The notes under the pieces: model-generated
Told to the model about the DNA's origin: nothing
Seen by the model: the letters and a program-made list of their open reading frames with translations, nothing else
Database searches by the model: none
Program-made: the position numbers and the translations under genes
In this document: piece after piece, positions 39,595-45,710 of the stretch
How the letters are laid out: every line of letters starts with the position of its first letter
How positions within the stretch are numbered: the stretch's first letter is position 1
Assembly (NCBI RefSeq): GCF_004365915.1
Contig: NZ_SODI01000001.1
Coordinates: forward strand, 62,001-126,000
Source of the DNA: Cryobacterium psychrophilum
GTDB lineage: Bacteria > Actinomycetota > Actinomycetes > Actinomycetales > Microbacteriaceae
DNA length: 64,000 nt
Direction: 5' to 3'

Positions 39595-39785
39595 TCGACA
39601 CCTTGGCTTGCCGTCCAGACAAACCGTGCAATAATTAATAACAGGACCCGTTCTGGTCTTGGGAGTTCCGGCGAAATGCCGGCACGGTTGTCCCGGGACT
39701 TGACATGGGTCCTAGTACTGCCCGAAATCCCCGGAACTGTGGGGATGTTGGCACGTGCGCATAACTCGGCATGAGAGGTGTTCGA

Positions 39786-41117
<1,332 letters not shown>

Positions 41118-41119
41118 AC

Positions 41120-42421
41120 GTGCCGGTGCGTTATGTCCCGGCGATCCTCGTTGGCAGGATCGTCCGGACGCTCGCGCGTTGGCGCAAGCCGGGCGGAGGC
41201 TCGGCAATCCCCGGGCTGGTTGTCAACCGGGTGGCCCCAGCCTTCCTGACGACGACCCTCAACGGATTTCCCCAGGGGCTCGTCGTCGTGACGGGTTCGA
41301 GCGGTAAATCGACCACCACGAAAATGCTCGTGGCGATCTTGCGCGCGCACGGAACGAGCGTGTTCACCAACTCGTCCACAGCCAACATCAGTCAGGGCCT
41401 GACGTCTGCGCTGCTCGAACAGGTCAGTCTGACCGGACGCATGAGCGACGACATCGGCGTACTCGAAATGGACGAGGGCCACGGAGCGCTCATCGCCGGA
41501 GGACTGACACCACGTGTTGTGGCGCTGACCAACGTGATGGTCGATCAAATCGACCGTTTCCACGACTCCGAAATGGTTGCGGCGCTTCTCGCCAAGATCG
41601 CGGCCCGTGCCACCCAAAGCGTTGTGCTCAACGCCGACGACCAATTCCTCGTCGAGGTGGGTGCCGGGCTCGGGGCGACGGTGTCCGTCGCGACCTATGG
41701 CGTCAGCACCGATGTGCTGGCAGCCAACCCGCGCGGTCTGGGTTACGCCCGAACGGCCGGGGAACGGTTGAAAGCCGGTACGGGCACACTAGTGACTCGG
41801 GTGGCCGGTCGTGTCGCGGACCTTTCGCTGCCTGTTGCGCCGTCTCAATCGCAGGAGCCGGCCACGACGGTGACGATAGATCTTCCGGCGCGCGGAACGC
41901 ACTATGCCGTTGACGCGGCCACCGCGTTGGCCACGGCTCAGGCAGCCCTCGGTGACCAATTTGACTCCGCGACGGCGGCCGCAGCACTGTCCACGATTCC
42001 GGCAGTGTTTGGTCGCGGCGAGATTGTGACCGTACGCGGGCAGCAGGTCGAATTCGTGCTCGTGCAGAATCCGGCGAGTTTTCAACTCAACGTCGATGCC
42101 CTCGAACCGCACACGGAGCAGATCCTCATTGCCATCGGTTCGGATGTTCGGGATCCCTCGTACTTCTGGCCGGTGGATACGTCCGGCCTGGAACACGTGC
42201 TCTTCGCGTCCGGGTCAAAGGCTCACGAGATTGCACTGCAACTGGCCTACGACGATGTGCGGGTCGACCGGATCGAACCGGATGTCCCCACGGCGCTTGA
42301 CGCCTTCCTCGCGTTACCCGCTCCCGAACATGGACTCAAGACGATCATCTTCTCGGCCGACGGCATGCGCCGCACTCGCGTCCACCTCGGCCTGGAAACG
42401 AACGACGAGGAGCAGTCATGA
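41120..42421 (+). CDS. murT: MurT-like Mur ligase (lipid II amidation subunit family), zinc ribbon missing
   Basis: A 433-residue Mur-ligase-fold protein with ATP loop VVTGSSGKSTTTKML (Gly59-Thr67), metal region LEMDEGHGAL and TNVMVDQIDRFHD. The C-terminal MurT domain has the NP-S-NVDAL stretch and SDVRDPSYFWPVD. Known MurT proteins bind zinc through a four-Cys ribbon; this protein has no cysteine at all, and Pro351 follows the conserved Trp where an acidic residue is usual. It partners with GatD, overlapping by 4 bp. Canonical MurT-GatD converts D-Glu of lipid II to D-isoglutamine. The GTG start lies 2 bp after rpoD. Confidence 0.85.
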   Translation: MPVRYVPAILVGRIVRTLARWRKPGGGSAIPGLVVNRVAPAFLTTTLNGFPQGLVVVTGSSGKSTTTKMLVAILRAHGTSVFTNSSTANISQGLTSALLEQVSLTGRMSDDIGVLEMDEGHGALIAGGLTPRVVALTNVMVDQIDRFHDSEMVAALLAKIAARATQSVVLNADDQFLVEVGAGLGATVSVATYGVSTDVLAANPRGLGYARTAGERLKAGTGTLVTRVAGRVADLSLPVAPSQSQEPATTVTIDLPARGTHYAVDAATALATAQAALGDQFDSATAAAALSTIPAVFGRGEIVTVRGQQVEFVLVQNPASFQLNVDALEPHTEQILIAIGSDVRDPSYFWPVDTSGLEHVLFASGSKAHEIALQLAYDDVRVDRIEPDVPTALDAFLALPAPEHGLKTIIFSADGMRRTRVHLGLETNDEEQS

Positions 42422-43146
42422 CGCGTCAGCTCACTATCATCTCCGTGCTTCCCGATCTGCTGAACACCAATGGGGACGCCGCGAATGCCCGGGTCCTGGC
42501 GCAGCGGGCCCGGTGGAGCGGCCATGAGGCATCCGTTGTTGAGGTGCGGTCCAGGGCCGATCTTCCTGAATCTGTTGACGCCATCGTGATCGGCTCCGGG
42601 GCGGACGCCGAGCTTGTCGGTGCCCGTGACATCTTGCTCACCATGGTCGACGAGCTTCGAGCGTGGACGACGGCAGGTGTTCCCCTTCTCGCGGTCGGAA
42701 CGGGTTGGGAGCTGTTGAGCTGGGGGATTGAGCTGCACAGCGGCACCGTGGTTGAGGGGCTCGGTCTCGTCGCGGGCAGGGCCGTTCCCCGCGTTGTTCG
42801 GGCCACGGACGATATCGTCGTCACGAGTAAGCACGGTCGTCTCGTCGGATTTGAAAACCATGCGCGTGACTACGTCGGCGCAGAGGCGTCGCCCCTCGGA
42901 CGAGTTCTTTCCGGCACCGGCAACGGAAACGGCGGTGAGGGACTGGTTATGGGCGATCTCATCGGGACGCATCTCCATGGCCCCGTGCTTGCCCGAAACC
43001 CTGGCCTGGCCGACCATATGCTCCGAGCTGCGTTCGGCCGGGTGGGTGAGGTCTACGAATCAGGGGAGCGCACCGCACCTGTCGACGCCATGGCGCACGC
43101 CGTTCGCGATCAGATTGCGACCCGCCTGTCGCTCTCTGGCGAGTAG
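42418..43146 (+). CDS. gatD: GatD-like amidotransferase subunit lacking the catalytic Cys
   Basis: A 242-residue class I glutamine-amidotransferase fold of the GatD/CobB type. GatD supplies ammonia from Gln to MurT through a Cys-His pair. The Cys segment (usually V-C-G-G-Y-Q-L-L) reads V-G-T-G-W-E-L-L, so residue 94 is Gly. The His motif GTHLHGPVLARNP is retained (His187), as is RLVGFENHARDYVG. The reading frame is intact and highly similar elsewhere, so loss of function by decay is unlikely. Coupled to murT by an ATGA overlap. Confidence 0.85.
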   Translation: MTRQLTIISVLPDLLNTNGDAANARVLAQRARWSGHEASVVEVRSRADLPESVDAIVIGSGADAELVGARDILLTMVDELRAWTTAGVPLLAVGTGWELLSWGIELHSGTVVEGLGLVAGRAVPRVVRATDDIVVTSKHGRLVGFENHARDYVGAEASPLGRVLSGTGNGNGGEGLVMGDLIGTHLHGPVLARNPGLADHMLRAAFGRVGEVYESGERTAPVDAMAHAVRDQIATRLSLSGE

Positions 43147-43174
43147 CTGCCACAAACGTCGCTCTGAAACGAGA

Positions 43175-43214
43175 AACGGCCCGGGAATCGTCTCAGACGA
43201 ATTCCCGGGCCGTT
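43175..43214. terminator. Terminator between gatD and the small zinc protein
   Basis: AACGGCCCGGGAAT (43175-43188) pairs with ATTCCCGGGCCGTT (43201-43214); an inner CGTCT/AGACG pair extends the stem. Serves both converging genes. Confidence 0.85.
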
Positions 43215-43234
43215 GTGCGACGCGCGTCGGTTTG

Positions 43235-43471
43235 CTATGAGCGCTGATCTTCGAGCAGTCGGCTCGATTCGTCGTGCCAGCTCTCGGCAATCGCCGACAA
43301 CTTCTCCTGATGCTTACGACCGTGGTGAGCGCAGAACAGCAATTCGCTGTTGTTCACGACGACTCGAATGTACGCCTGGGCGCCACAAGCGTCGCAGCGG
43401 TCTGCCGCGGTCAGCTGGTGGGGGGTGCCCTGCTGCTCTGCTGCACCATGTTCGGTGGCGATCTTAGACAT
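43235..43471 (-). CDS. DUF7455-like small zinc-motif protein
   Basis: A 78-residue protein with CDACGAQAYIRVVV and LLFCAHHGRKH, a probable CxxC...CxxH zinc knuckle. This small protein occurs across actinobacteria near sigA and topoisomerase genes, function unknown. ATG 43471 is preceded by a GAGGAGGAAC-like ribosome site. It converges with gatD and is divergent from parE. Confidence 0.85.
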   Translation of the reverse strand: MSKIATEHGAAEQQGTPHQLTAADRCDACGAQAYIRVVVNNSELLFCAHHGRKHQEKLSAIAESWHDESSRLLEDQRS

Positions 43472-43631
43472 GTGTTCCTCCTCCAGACAAAAAACCTTAT
43501 TGCCTCTTGATCAATGTTTACACGCCGAGGCTTCGTTATCGAGCACAATACGGGCTATTTCGCTGGGGGCGTACCGCGCGGCGGGGGGTGTCGATTCCCG
43601 GGGGCACCGCTCGGGCCGGTAATCTGGGTTA

Positions 43632-45710
43632 GTGAGTTCTGATTATTCTGCGCGCCATCTGTCCGTCCTCGAGGGGCTCGAAGCGGTGCGCAAGCGGCCG
43701 GGAATGTACATCGGGTCAACGGACTCACGAGGCCTTATGCACTGCCTCTGGGAAATCATCGACAATTCCGTCGACGAGGCCCTGGGCGGGCACGGCAGCA
43801 GCATCAAGATTGAACTTCATCCCGATGAGAGCGTCGAGGTGCGCGACACGGCTCGTGGCATCCCCGTCGACATCGAGCCCAAGACCGGCCTGACCGGTGT
43901 CGAAGTGGTCTTCACGAAACTCCACGCCGGTGGAAAATTCGGCAGCGGGTCGTACGCCGCGTCGGGCGGACTCCACGGTGTTGGGGCATCCGTCGTCAAC
44001 GCCCTGTCCGAACGGCTCGACGTCGAAGTCGACCGGGACGGCAAGACCTGGGCGATGTCCTTCCACCGGGGTGAACCAGGCGTGTTCGCCGATACCGGCG
44101 CCAAGAGCCCGGACGCGCCCTTCACCCCGTTCGAAGAGCAGAGTGTGCTGCGCGTGGTCGGCAAGGTCGCCAAGGGGGTCACCGGCACACGGGTGCGTTA
44201 TTGGGCAGACCGCCAGATCTTCACGAAGGGCGCGGCCTTCCAGGCGGAAGAGGTTCTCAACCGAGCCCGCCAGACAGCGTTCCTCGTGCCGGGCCTGGCC
44301 ATCGAGGTCGCCGATCGGCGCACCACCGAGGAGGTCGTCAACGCTTTCCAGTTCGACGGCGGCATCTCGGAGTTCGTCGACCATCTCGCCACAGACACAC
44401 CGATCACGGACACCTGGCGCCTGACCGGCAACGGAACCTTCAAAGAGACGGTTCCCGTTCTCACCGAGAAGGGCGCCATGGTGCCCACGGAACTCGAACG
44501 CAACTGCCAAGTGGACATCGCGCTGCGCTGGGGAACCGGCTACGACACGACCGTGCAAAGCTTCGTGAACATCATCGCCACCCCGAAGGGGGGAACGCAC
44601 CAGGCCGGATTCGACGCCGGGCTCTTGAAATTCCTCCGTGCCCAGGTGGAGCAGAACGCTCGCCGCCTGAAGGCAGGTTCTGACAAGCTTGAAAAGGACG
44701 ATGTGATGGCCGGCCTGACCGCCGTGCTCACCGTTCGTCTCCCGGAGCCACAGTTCGAGGGCCAGACGAAGGAAGTACTCGGCACACCCGCCGTGCGTGC
44801 GATCGTGGCCGCAGTCGTCGCGAAGGCCATGAGCGAACGTTTCGTGTCACCCAAGCGTGACGACAAGGCACAGGCCGCCGTCGTGCTCGACAAGATTGTC
44901 GCCGAGATGAAGTCGCGCATCTCAGCGCGTGCGCATAAGGAGACCCAGCGGCGCAAGAATGCTCTCGAGAGTTCATCGCTTCCGGCGAAACTCGTGGACT
45001 GCCGCAGCAATGACGTGTCCACGAGTGAACTGTTCATCGTGGAGGGCGATTCGGCACTCGGCACGGCGAAACTTGCGCGCGACAGCGAGCACCAGGCGCT
45101 CCTTCCGATCCGAGGAAAAATTCTCAACGTGCAGAAGGCATCCGTCTCGGACATGCTGTCGAACACCGAGTGCGCCTCGATCATTCAGGTGATCGGAGCG
45201 GGTTCCGGCCGGAGCTTTGACCTCTCCGCGGCCCGGTACGGCAAGGTCATCATCATGAGTGATGCCGACGTGGATGGCGCACACATTCGTACGCTCCTGC
45301 TGACACTCTTCTTCCGCTACATGCGCCCGATGATTGCCGAGGGGCGCGTGTTCGCCGCTGTGCCGCCGCTGCACCGCGTCGTGGTGATGAACCCGGGAAG
45401 CAAGCCCAACGAAACGATCTACACCTACTCCGAGGTTGAGCTCTACGGCGTACTGAGCGCGCTCGAGAAGAAGGGCAAGCGCTATCAGGACCCCATCCAG
45501 CGCTACAAGGGGCTGGGTGAAATGGATGCCGATCAGCTCGCGACCACCACCATGGAACGCGCCCACCGAACGCTTCGCCGAGTACGCGTCAACGACGCGG
45601 ATGCCGCGGCGAAGGTTTTCGAATTGCTGATGGGCAACGAAGTGGCACCGCGCAAGGAGTTCATCGTCGACAGCTCGGACAAGCTCAGTCGGGATCGGAT
45701 CGACGTGTAA
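43632..45710 (+). CDS. parE: Type IIA topoisomerase subunit B (ParE-like)
   Basis: A 692-residue GHKL ATPase subunit. Motifs: RKRPGMYIGSTDSRGL, ATP lid GGLHGVGASVVNAL, TOPRIM EGDSALGTAKLARD, PIRGKILNVQKA and SDADVDGAHIRTLLL. Actinobacteria keep gyrBA near dnaA, so a second pair next to rpoD/murT is probably topoisomerase IV; gyrase activity cannot be excluded from sequence. Starts at GTG 43632. Converges on the parC gene. Confidence 0.9.
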   Translation: MSSDYSARHLSVLEGLEAVRKRPGMYIGSTDSRGLMHCLWEIIDNSVDEALGGHGSSIKIELHPDESVEVRDTARGIPVDIEPKTGLTGVEVVFTKLHAGGKFGSGSYAASGGLHGVGASVVNALSERLDVEVDRDGKTWAMSFHRGEPGVFADTGAKSPDAPFTPFEEQSVLRVVGKVAKGVTGTRVRYWADRQIFTKGAAFQAEEVLNRARQTAFLVPGLAIEVADRRTTEEVVNAFQFDGGISEFVDHLATDTPITDTWRLTGNGTFKETVPVLTEKGAMVPTELERNCQVDIALRWGTGYDTTVQSFVNIIATPKGGTHQAGFDAGLLKFLRAQVEQNARRLKAGSDKLEKDDVMAGLTAVLTVRLPEPQFEGQTKEVLGTPAVRAIVAAVVAKAMSERFVSPKRDDKAQAAVVLDKIVAEMKSRISARAHKETQRRKNALESSSLPAKLVDCRSNDVSTSELFIVEGDSALGTAKLARDSEHQALLPIRGKILNVQKASVSDMLSNTECASIIQVIGAGSGRSFDLSAARYGKVIIMSDADVDGAHIRTLLLTLFFRYMRPMIAEGRVFAAVPPLHRVVVMNPGSKPNETIYTYSEVELYGVLSALEKKGKRYQDPIQRYKGLGEMDADQLATTTMERAHRTLRRVRVNDADAAAKVFELLMGNEVAPRKEFIVDSSDKLSRDRIDV

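Follow-up and report, generated by a model that had tools for sequence, protein, structure and literature searches.

A cysteine-less MurT-GatD pair behind rpoD in Cryobacterium psychrophilum, a probable ligase for the start of the B-type peptidoglycan bridge

In a 64,000-nucleotide stretch of the Cryobacterium psychrophilum genome (contig NZ_SODI01000001.1, positions 62,001 to 126,000; hereafter the window), genes for a MurT-like ligase and a GatD-like subunit lie directly behind rpoD. We propose that this pair, which lacks the nucleophilic Cys of the GatD glutaminase, is probably an amino-acid ligase that acts on the D-isoglutamate alpha-carboxyl and so begins the bridge of B-type peptidoglycan. 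The proposal starts from what we observed of the residues of the pair, its clade, the selection on it, the genomic slot that it occupies, the mutual exclusion of the ligases concerned and their neighbour genes. In B-type walls, the alpha-carboxyl of D-Glu bears the bridge, and we know of no enzyme assigned to the attachment of the bridge at this carboxyl. A survey of titles and abstract openings, with subscription papers and preprints mostly outside its reach, returned no ligase assigned to the B-type bridge and no MurT-GatD without Cys. Passages of PMC10978784 describe the Microbacteriaceae as having B-type peptidoglycan, B types are given for single genera in parts of PMC7033078, PMC4156110, and PMC5945732, the Gly-D-Glu linkage is called characteristic of the B type in a passage of PMC4156110, and an excerpt of PMC4062643 writes B1delta as D-Glu-Gly-L-Lys.

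The pair and its diagnostic residues occupy the following positions of the window.

41120..42421, plus strand: murT-like ligase gene; 433 residues, no Cys; Mur_ligase_M and MurT_C domains
41294..41314, plus strand: P-loop GSSGKST, murT residues 59-65; Ser at S. aureus Thr60
41903..41914, plus strand: altered adenine pocket, murT Tyr262/Asp265, which align with S. aureus Asn264/Asn267
42152..42154, plus strand: murT Asp345, conserved; corresponds to triad residue D349 of S. aureus
42170..42172, plus strand: murT Pro351, aligned with S. aureus D355; this site varies among Cys-less rows
42418..43146, plus strand: gatD-like subunit gene; 242 residues, no Cys; GATase_3 domain; GatD fold predicted
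42697..42699, plus strand: gatD Gly94 codon, the site of the nucleophilic Cys in canonical GatD
42976..42978, plus strand: gatD His187, equivalent of catalytic His189; kept in the window

A sequence-only reading of this DNA had placed two intact, translationally coupled frames behind rpoD, and their borders are indeed those given above: murT starts 2 nt past the rpoD stop, and its own stop overlaps the gatD start. That reading was also right that the nucleophile position 94 of GatD is Gly (AVGTGWELLS, in alignment with GatD of S. aureus and S. pneumoniae), that the catalytic-His motif is kept (HLHGP with His187), and that MurT has no Cys at all and retains the ATP loop GSSGKST. We found in addition that GatD has no Cys either, and that MurT carries changes that had been missed, as both adenine-pocket Asn residues (N264 and N267) are replaced, by Tyr262 and Asp265, and the P-loop Thr is replaced by Ser. 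When the canonical catalytic triad was looked for, Cys94 was absent and the equivalents of His189 and D349 were present as His187 and Asp345. Pro351, to which the sequence-only reading had drawn attention, was considered as the triad residue D349 and rejected by numbering on a Staphylococcus sequence (S. schweitzeri, with K59 as the P-loop Lys and D349 as the Asp of GRDTSW), which places it at S. aureus D355. In S. aureus, GatD C94G and MurT D349N each abolish amidation according to passages of PMC6113224 and PMC6085368, and MurT N267Y is given as inactive in a passage of PMC6113224.

A base error at 42697-42699, which would have explained the missing Cys, is unlikely since Gly94 was present in all 120 of the 120 GatD matches listed (one of them the window's own protein), several from named Cryobacterium isolates. 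Named relatives of this GatD are mostly Cryobacterium, with Glaciibacter in addition.

By its domains, Mur_ligase_M and MurT_C in one protein and GATase_3 in the other, all above the Pfam cut-offs, and by its predicted GatD fold, the pair belongs to the MurT-GatD superfamily. The GatD model had a predicted local distance difference test score (pLDDT) of 95.5 and a template modeling (TM) score of 0.89 to S. aureus GatD 6h5e_A. The MurT model had a pLDDT of 82.7, with residues 203-247 unsure, and its best matches in the PDB were MurT and Mur ligases, with MurF, MurD, MurE, and MurC among them. Compared with the MurT-GatD isoglutaminyl synthase of S. aureus, S. pneumoniae, and Mycobacterium, the window pair shares the gene order, both folds, the P-loop Lys, the acceptor Asn, the Mg-site acids, the D349 equivalent, and the GatD HGP motif. 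It differs in that it has no nucleophilic Cys, has the adenine-pocket Asn pair replaced and Ser for Thr in the P-loop, stands behind rpoD, and, in both MurT and GatD, stays well short of the NCBIfam equivalog cut-offs (84.6 of 800 and 103.8 of 450). The Mur ligases MurC-MurF have the ATP-binding central fold in common with MurT, and their nucleophile is a free amino acid or dipeptide. They differ from it in adding residues to the stem, while MurT-type proteins, according to a passage of PMC6113224, are without their N-terminal domain and need GatD.

To define the distribution of such pairs, GatD and MurT loci were read in a family sample of 150 Microbacteriaceae genomes; the searches scored part of the candidates and listed only some of the non-matching genomes, so that absence in this sample is not proof. 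Cys94 was absent in 93 of 110 distinct GatD loci (92 in the Cys-less set, which is defined by residue 94, and the divergent locus L110) and kept in 17. Position 94 of the 92 Cys-less rows was Gly in 65, Ala in 18, Ser in 4, Asn in 3, and Thr in 2, and the His189 equivalent was kept in 64/92 and lost in 28/92. On the MurT side, the equivalents of K59, N85, E108, D110, E111, and N130 were found in 91/91 Cys-less rows, as was D349, while the D355 site varied (Asp in 37, Pro in 28). Thr60 was Ser in 88 of these 91 rows, N267 was Asp in 90, and N264 was Tyr in 83; 69 of the 91 had no Cys at all. Of the 95 genomes counted as Cys-less, two (G038, G144) were classed by MurT alone. Two loci (L298 in G013 and L299 in G095) have a MurT match that contains one TAA, with Gly at GatD position 94 and Tyr at the His position.

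Outside the family, Cys94 was present in 40/40 GatD loci read from other families of the order (21/21 and 19/19), in which 91 genomes had strong GatD matches, and in 50/50 loci read from Bacilli, the class of a Staphylococcus genome (193/299 genomes with a match). It was also present in 80/80 named contigs, a choice biased to canonical forms, as these contigs matched S. aureus GatD best. Cys-less GatD was thus confined to Microbacteriaceae among the loci read. The sequence-only reading had suggested asking whether loss of Cys94 and of the four-Cys zinc ribbon of MurT tracks with B-type walls. The ribbon was rejected as a marker on Cys counts in canonical MurT rows: at least four Cys occurred in only 5/26 rows from other families and Firmicutes and in 3/17 canonical Microbacteriaceae rows, so that few canonical actinobacterial MurT have four Cys and their loss is not diagnostic. 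According to a passage of PMC6085368, the Cys tetrad of MurT is found in only some Actinobacteria.

A tree of 93 MurT sequences served as a check independent of residue 94. All 41 sampled Cys-less rows, the window included, formed one clade (100/100) nested inside actinobacterial canonical MurT. A further set, group III, formed a separate clade of 8 rows (100/96), with a weakly supported neighborhood to Firmicutes MurT; in its GatD, position 94 is mostly His and position 189 Ile or Leu, and its pairs keep CxxC-type Cys despite the lost glutaminase site. Group III-like pairs that have His or Asn at position 94 and lack the catalytic His were seen at L318-L326 and L327, the last a Canibacter copy (38% GC) that looks acquired and has Tissierellia-named relatives. 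Over 14 pairs of Cys-less loci, which include two genus mates of the window and leave out the window itself, the ratio of nonsynonymous to synonymous substitution rates (dN/dS) was 0.06-0.35 for GatD and 0.01-0.25 for MurT. Because the Cys-less rows form one clade, dN/dS is low, and GatD and MurT folds are predicted, we regard the pair as a maintained ligase without a glutaminase.

The slot behind rpoD is delimited as follows.

39771..41117, plus strand: rpoD, fixed gene that bounds the slot upstream; MFS and PAC2 genes precede it
41118..43631, plus strand: post-rpoD slot, with murT-gatD in the window; in relatives it holds a group III pair or a CofE-like ligase or is empty up to parE
43632..45710, plus strand: parE/gyrB-like topoisomerase gene, which bounds the slot downstream

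In the window, rpoD, murT, gatD, and parE all run in the same direction, and PAC2 and/or MFS genes 5' of rpoD recur in related genomes. A start within 150 nt of rpoD was found for 87/96 Cys-less loci, 9/10 group III loci, and 0/17 canonical loci. The remaining Cys-less loci are L044, at 691 nt, and eight without an automatic placement; in two of these, L015 and L022, the distance from rpoD to murT is at most 0.9 kb. As 38 of 68 genomes gave no MurT match at 1e-20, the pair had at one point been taken as dispensable; this was revised after another ligase was found in the slot. Thirty of these 38 genomes were read behind rpoD: parE followed directly in 4, and 23 of the other 26 had an open reading frame (ORF) of about 235 aa of the CofE-like family (PF01996; L348-L364, L366-L370, L377), with an ATP-grasp ORF (PF14397, hereafter ATPgrasp_ST) also behind rpoD in 18 of the 26. 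A profile search found the close CofE-like ligase in 21/150 genomes at E below 1e-100, and three divergent matches at 1e-38 to 1e-44 (G053, G123, G147). A search of the PDB at 0.01 returned no sequence relative of the CofE-like set. This stand-alone ligase, of the F420-0:gamma-glutamyl ligase family, occupies the same post-rpoD slot as the pair and has no glutaminase domain, and its ATPgrasp_ST and racemase-family neighbors are common to some MurT-GatD types. It differs from the pair in belonging to another Pfam family, and its close form was absent from pair-bearing genomes.

Counted by type, the 150 genomes comprise 95 with the Cys-less pair, 10 with group III (including the Canibacter pair, which is not behind rpoD), 2 with a divergent pair, 17 with the canonical pair, 21 with the CofE-like ligase, and 8 in which none was found. 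Some ligase other than the canonical pair (Cys-less, group III, divergent, or CofE-like) was present in 128/150, and 14 had the canonical pair only. The close CofE-like ligase and MurT-GatD of any kind did not overlap in any genome (0, 107, 21, 22; Fisher test 4.7e-14, uncorrected for ancestry), 107 being the genomes with a Cys-less or group III pair and 21 the close CofE-like genomes, with the three divergent matches excluded from the CofE-like count. The canonical pair met one of the other ligases in 3/17 genomes (Fisher test 1.0e-11, likewise uncorrected). Among 14 genera tabulated, six were split between Cys-less and CofE-like, four between Cys-less and group III, and one between CofE-like and group III. 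In genus g85, taken as Microbacterium since relatives of the GatD of G106, one of its genomes, bear that name, 4 of the 12 genomes listed had the pair, 8 the CofE-like ligase, and none both. In all 14 canonical-only genomes, parE lay within 1.5 kb after rpoD with no MurT or CofE-like gene between. The none-found genomes are G019, G022, G049, G051, G062, G119, G121, and G146; parE follows rpoD in G019, G051, G062, G121, and G146, an amino-acid-binding-protein-like gene was seen by eye after rpoD in G049 and G119, and G022 gave no rpoD locus. Two of the three divergent CofE-like matches are in one genus, beside a divergent MurT-GatD-like pair (L110, L314, L399, L400, L412 in G123 and G053); in G123 both the gene and the pair lie behind rpoD, and in G053 they lie elsewhere.

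A related pattern was seen in other families of the order. Among approximately 274 genomes (297 less 23 recognized as belonging to the family), 91 had a strong GatD match, 27 a CofE-like domain, and none both. Here the CofE-like domain forms the C terminus of a protein that resembles asparagine synthetase; the four that were scanned had GATase_6/7 and Asn_synthase domains. The AsnB-CofE fusion, which occurred only in genomes without a strong GatD match (0/27 with both), differs from the slot ligase in having a class II glutaminase and a synthetase domain ahead of the ligase domain. Of 26 fusions read among the 27 (L441-L446, L453-L472), 17 keep the N-terminal Cys (MCGI) and SGGLDSS, 8 are without the AsnB glutaminase Cys, and 1 is a fragment. 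Because the Cys was lost in 8/26, both scaffolds occur with an ammonia source as well as without one, and the forms in the Microbacteriaceae slot are the ones without. Gly on D-Glu in A-type relatives was considered as a possible explanation of the fusions. Glycine is reported in the Brachybacterium wall in passages of PMC6090031.

The genes near the slot ligases were also examined. ATPgrasp_ST was found at E below 1e-90 in 19/21 CofE-like and 5/10 group III genomes, with two further weak matches in G014 and G051. An alanine-racemase-family gene (best match TIGR00492, below the equivalog cut-off) lies within 1.5 kb of 25/96 Cys-less loci, convergent within 100 nt in 14 of these. In at least 6/21 genomes such a gene is also close to the CofE-like gene. 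In G020, a diaminobutyrate-2-oxoglutarate transaminase, above the equivalog cut-off, is encoded between rpoD and the CofE-like gene (L375:2609-3934). The window's own genome has one MurT_C locus by the Pfam MurT_C model. Between gatD and parE in the window (43147-43631), a small CxxC protein ORF (DRCDACGAQAYIRV...FCAHH) lies on the minus strand, opposite to the operon; similar small CxxC ORFs were seen by eye after rpoD where relatives have no slot ligase (L365, L413, L415). A scan for promoters and terminators found nothing, and a search of viral contigs yielded no relative.

We propose that the pair probably derives from lipid II isoglutaminyl synthase, has lost its glutaminase activity, and has turned into an amino-acid ligase. 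Judged from the conservation of its P-loop Lys, acceptor Asn, and Mg-site acids, MurT would form an acyl phosphate at the D-isoglutamate alpha-carboxyl of the peptidoglycan precursor, and the nucleophile would be a free amino acid, either Gly or a diamino acid, in place of ammonia from glutamine. GatD would be retained as a structural partner, and the product would bear the initial residue of the interpeptide bridge of B-type walls. The post-rpoD slot would be the usual site of this activity in Microbacteriaceae, filled by the Cys-less clade, group III, or the CofE-like ligase. In this scheme, we infer the acceptor, the amine, the nucleotide, the role of GatD, and the link to the bridge. The exclusion of the canonical amidase indicates the same carboxyl, that is, the alpha-carboxyl of D-isoglutamate, and the racemase, transaminase, and ATP-grasp neighbors indicate an amino acid as the amine. 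A ligase for the first bridge residue is proposed because the carboxyl would be the same, the amine would be an amino acid, and the family is described as B-type, with the bridge on that carboxyl. The altered adenine pocket could mean another nucleotide, although this is only a hint.

The sequence-only reading, in which MurT still makes the acyl phosphate, another amine is attached, and GatD is a non-catalytic partner, is partly supported. The loss of the glutaminase, the conserved acyl-phosphate site, purifying selection, the restriction to Microbacteriaceae among the loci read, and the B-type wall described for the family all speak for it, as does the finding that other glutaminase-less ligases fill the same slot and largely exclude the canonical D-Glu amidase. 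The ribbon and Pro351 no longer contribute, the pair is not universal (21 of the 150 genomes have the CofE-like ligase instead, 14 the canonical pair only, and 8 none found), and the choice of amine and carboxyl remains conjectural.

Several observations weigh against our proposal. The 14 canonical-only and 8 none-found genomes belong to a family described as B-type and mean either wall-type exceptions, further ligases, or a wrong model. With a single origin of the Cys-less clade, its association with B-type walls cannot be separated from shared ancestry. All three divergent CofE-like matches sit in genomes with MurT-GatD. ATPgrasp_ST is rare beside Cys-less pairs (2/95), the window genome gave no ATPgrasp_ST match at 1e-20, the window contains no racemase, and the adenine-pocket changes, seen in the alignment, leave the use of ATP in question. 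To our knowledge, no biochemical work ties CofE-like or ATPgrasp_ST proteins to the B-type bridge pathway. The main text of an Erysipelothrix genome paper never mentions MurT or GatD (PMC9637936), and a search with an Erysipelothrix 16S primer matched no contig, so that our comparison is without B-type Firmicutes (Eubacterium and Acetobacterium included).

Other explanations were weighed against the same data. The pair may act on another carboxyl (of a bridge or stem residue) or another substrate, or may be a regulatory pseudoenzyme, as the altered adenine pocket and the loss of His189 in 28 of the Cys-less GatD rows could suggest; we consider this unlikely, given that the catalytic ligase residues are invariant, dN/dS is low, and the exclusion with the canonical D-Glu amidase indicates the same carboxyl. 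Somewhat less likely still, the pair makes D-isoglutamine from free ammonia, which some amidotransferases can use, with GatD merely stabilizing MurT. The retained acyl-phosphate site and GatD fold would suit such an enzyme, but the family is described as B-type, in which this carboxyl carries the bridge, and racemase and transaminase neighbors suit amino acids better than ammonia. The Cys-less, group III, and CofE-like ligases also mostly exclude the canonical amidase, yet exclusion alone would fit two enzymes that make the same amide.

That the mutual exclusion reflects descent or a recombination hotspot behind rpoD, and not equal function, we hold to be improbable. The slot is a fixed insertion place, and the exclusion counts are uncorrected for phylogeny; however, the ligases switch within single genera, as in the tabulated set and in Microbacterium (4:8, no overlap), GatD and the AsnB-CofE fusion never coincide in the non-family genomes, and the three such genomes with GatD whose rpoD locus was read (G154, G166, G222) show no MurT behind rpoD. 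Pseudogenes or sequencing errors, to which a gatD split over two frames in one genome of a carrier genus (G382, L347; decay or a base-calling error) might point, can practically be dismissed in view of the conservation across the set, the intact frames, and dN/dS well below 1.

If the pair is an amino-acid ligase for the first bridge step, the slot as a whole may be an exchangeable ligase site that sets the substituent of the D-isoglutamate alpha-carboxyl and so makes the wall B-type, a wider model that we consider about evenly balanced. At least two separate MurT-GatD lineages would have lost the glutaminase to enter it, and the CofE-like ligase, elsewhere in the order fused to an AsnB glutaminase, would enter without that glutaminase. 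The ATP-grasp ligase, racemases, and diaminobutyrate transaminase, which are nearby in part of the genomes, would supply and extend the bridge, and loss of the ammonia source would be the switch from an amidated to a bridge-bearing D-Glu. The slot offers three concrete candidates for the first step of B-type bridge formation, and it suggests a route from an amidotransferase to a peptide ligase through loss of the ammonia source.

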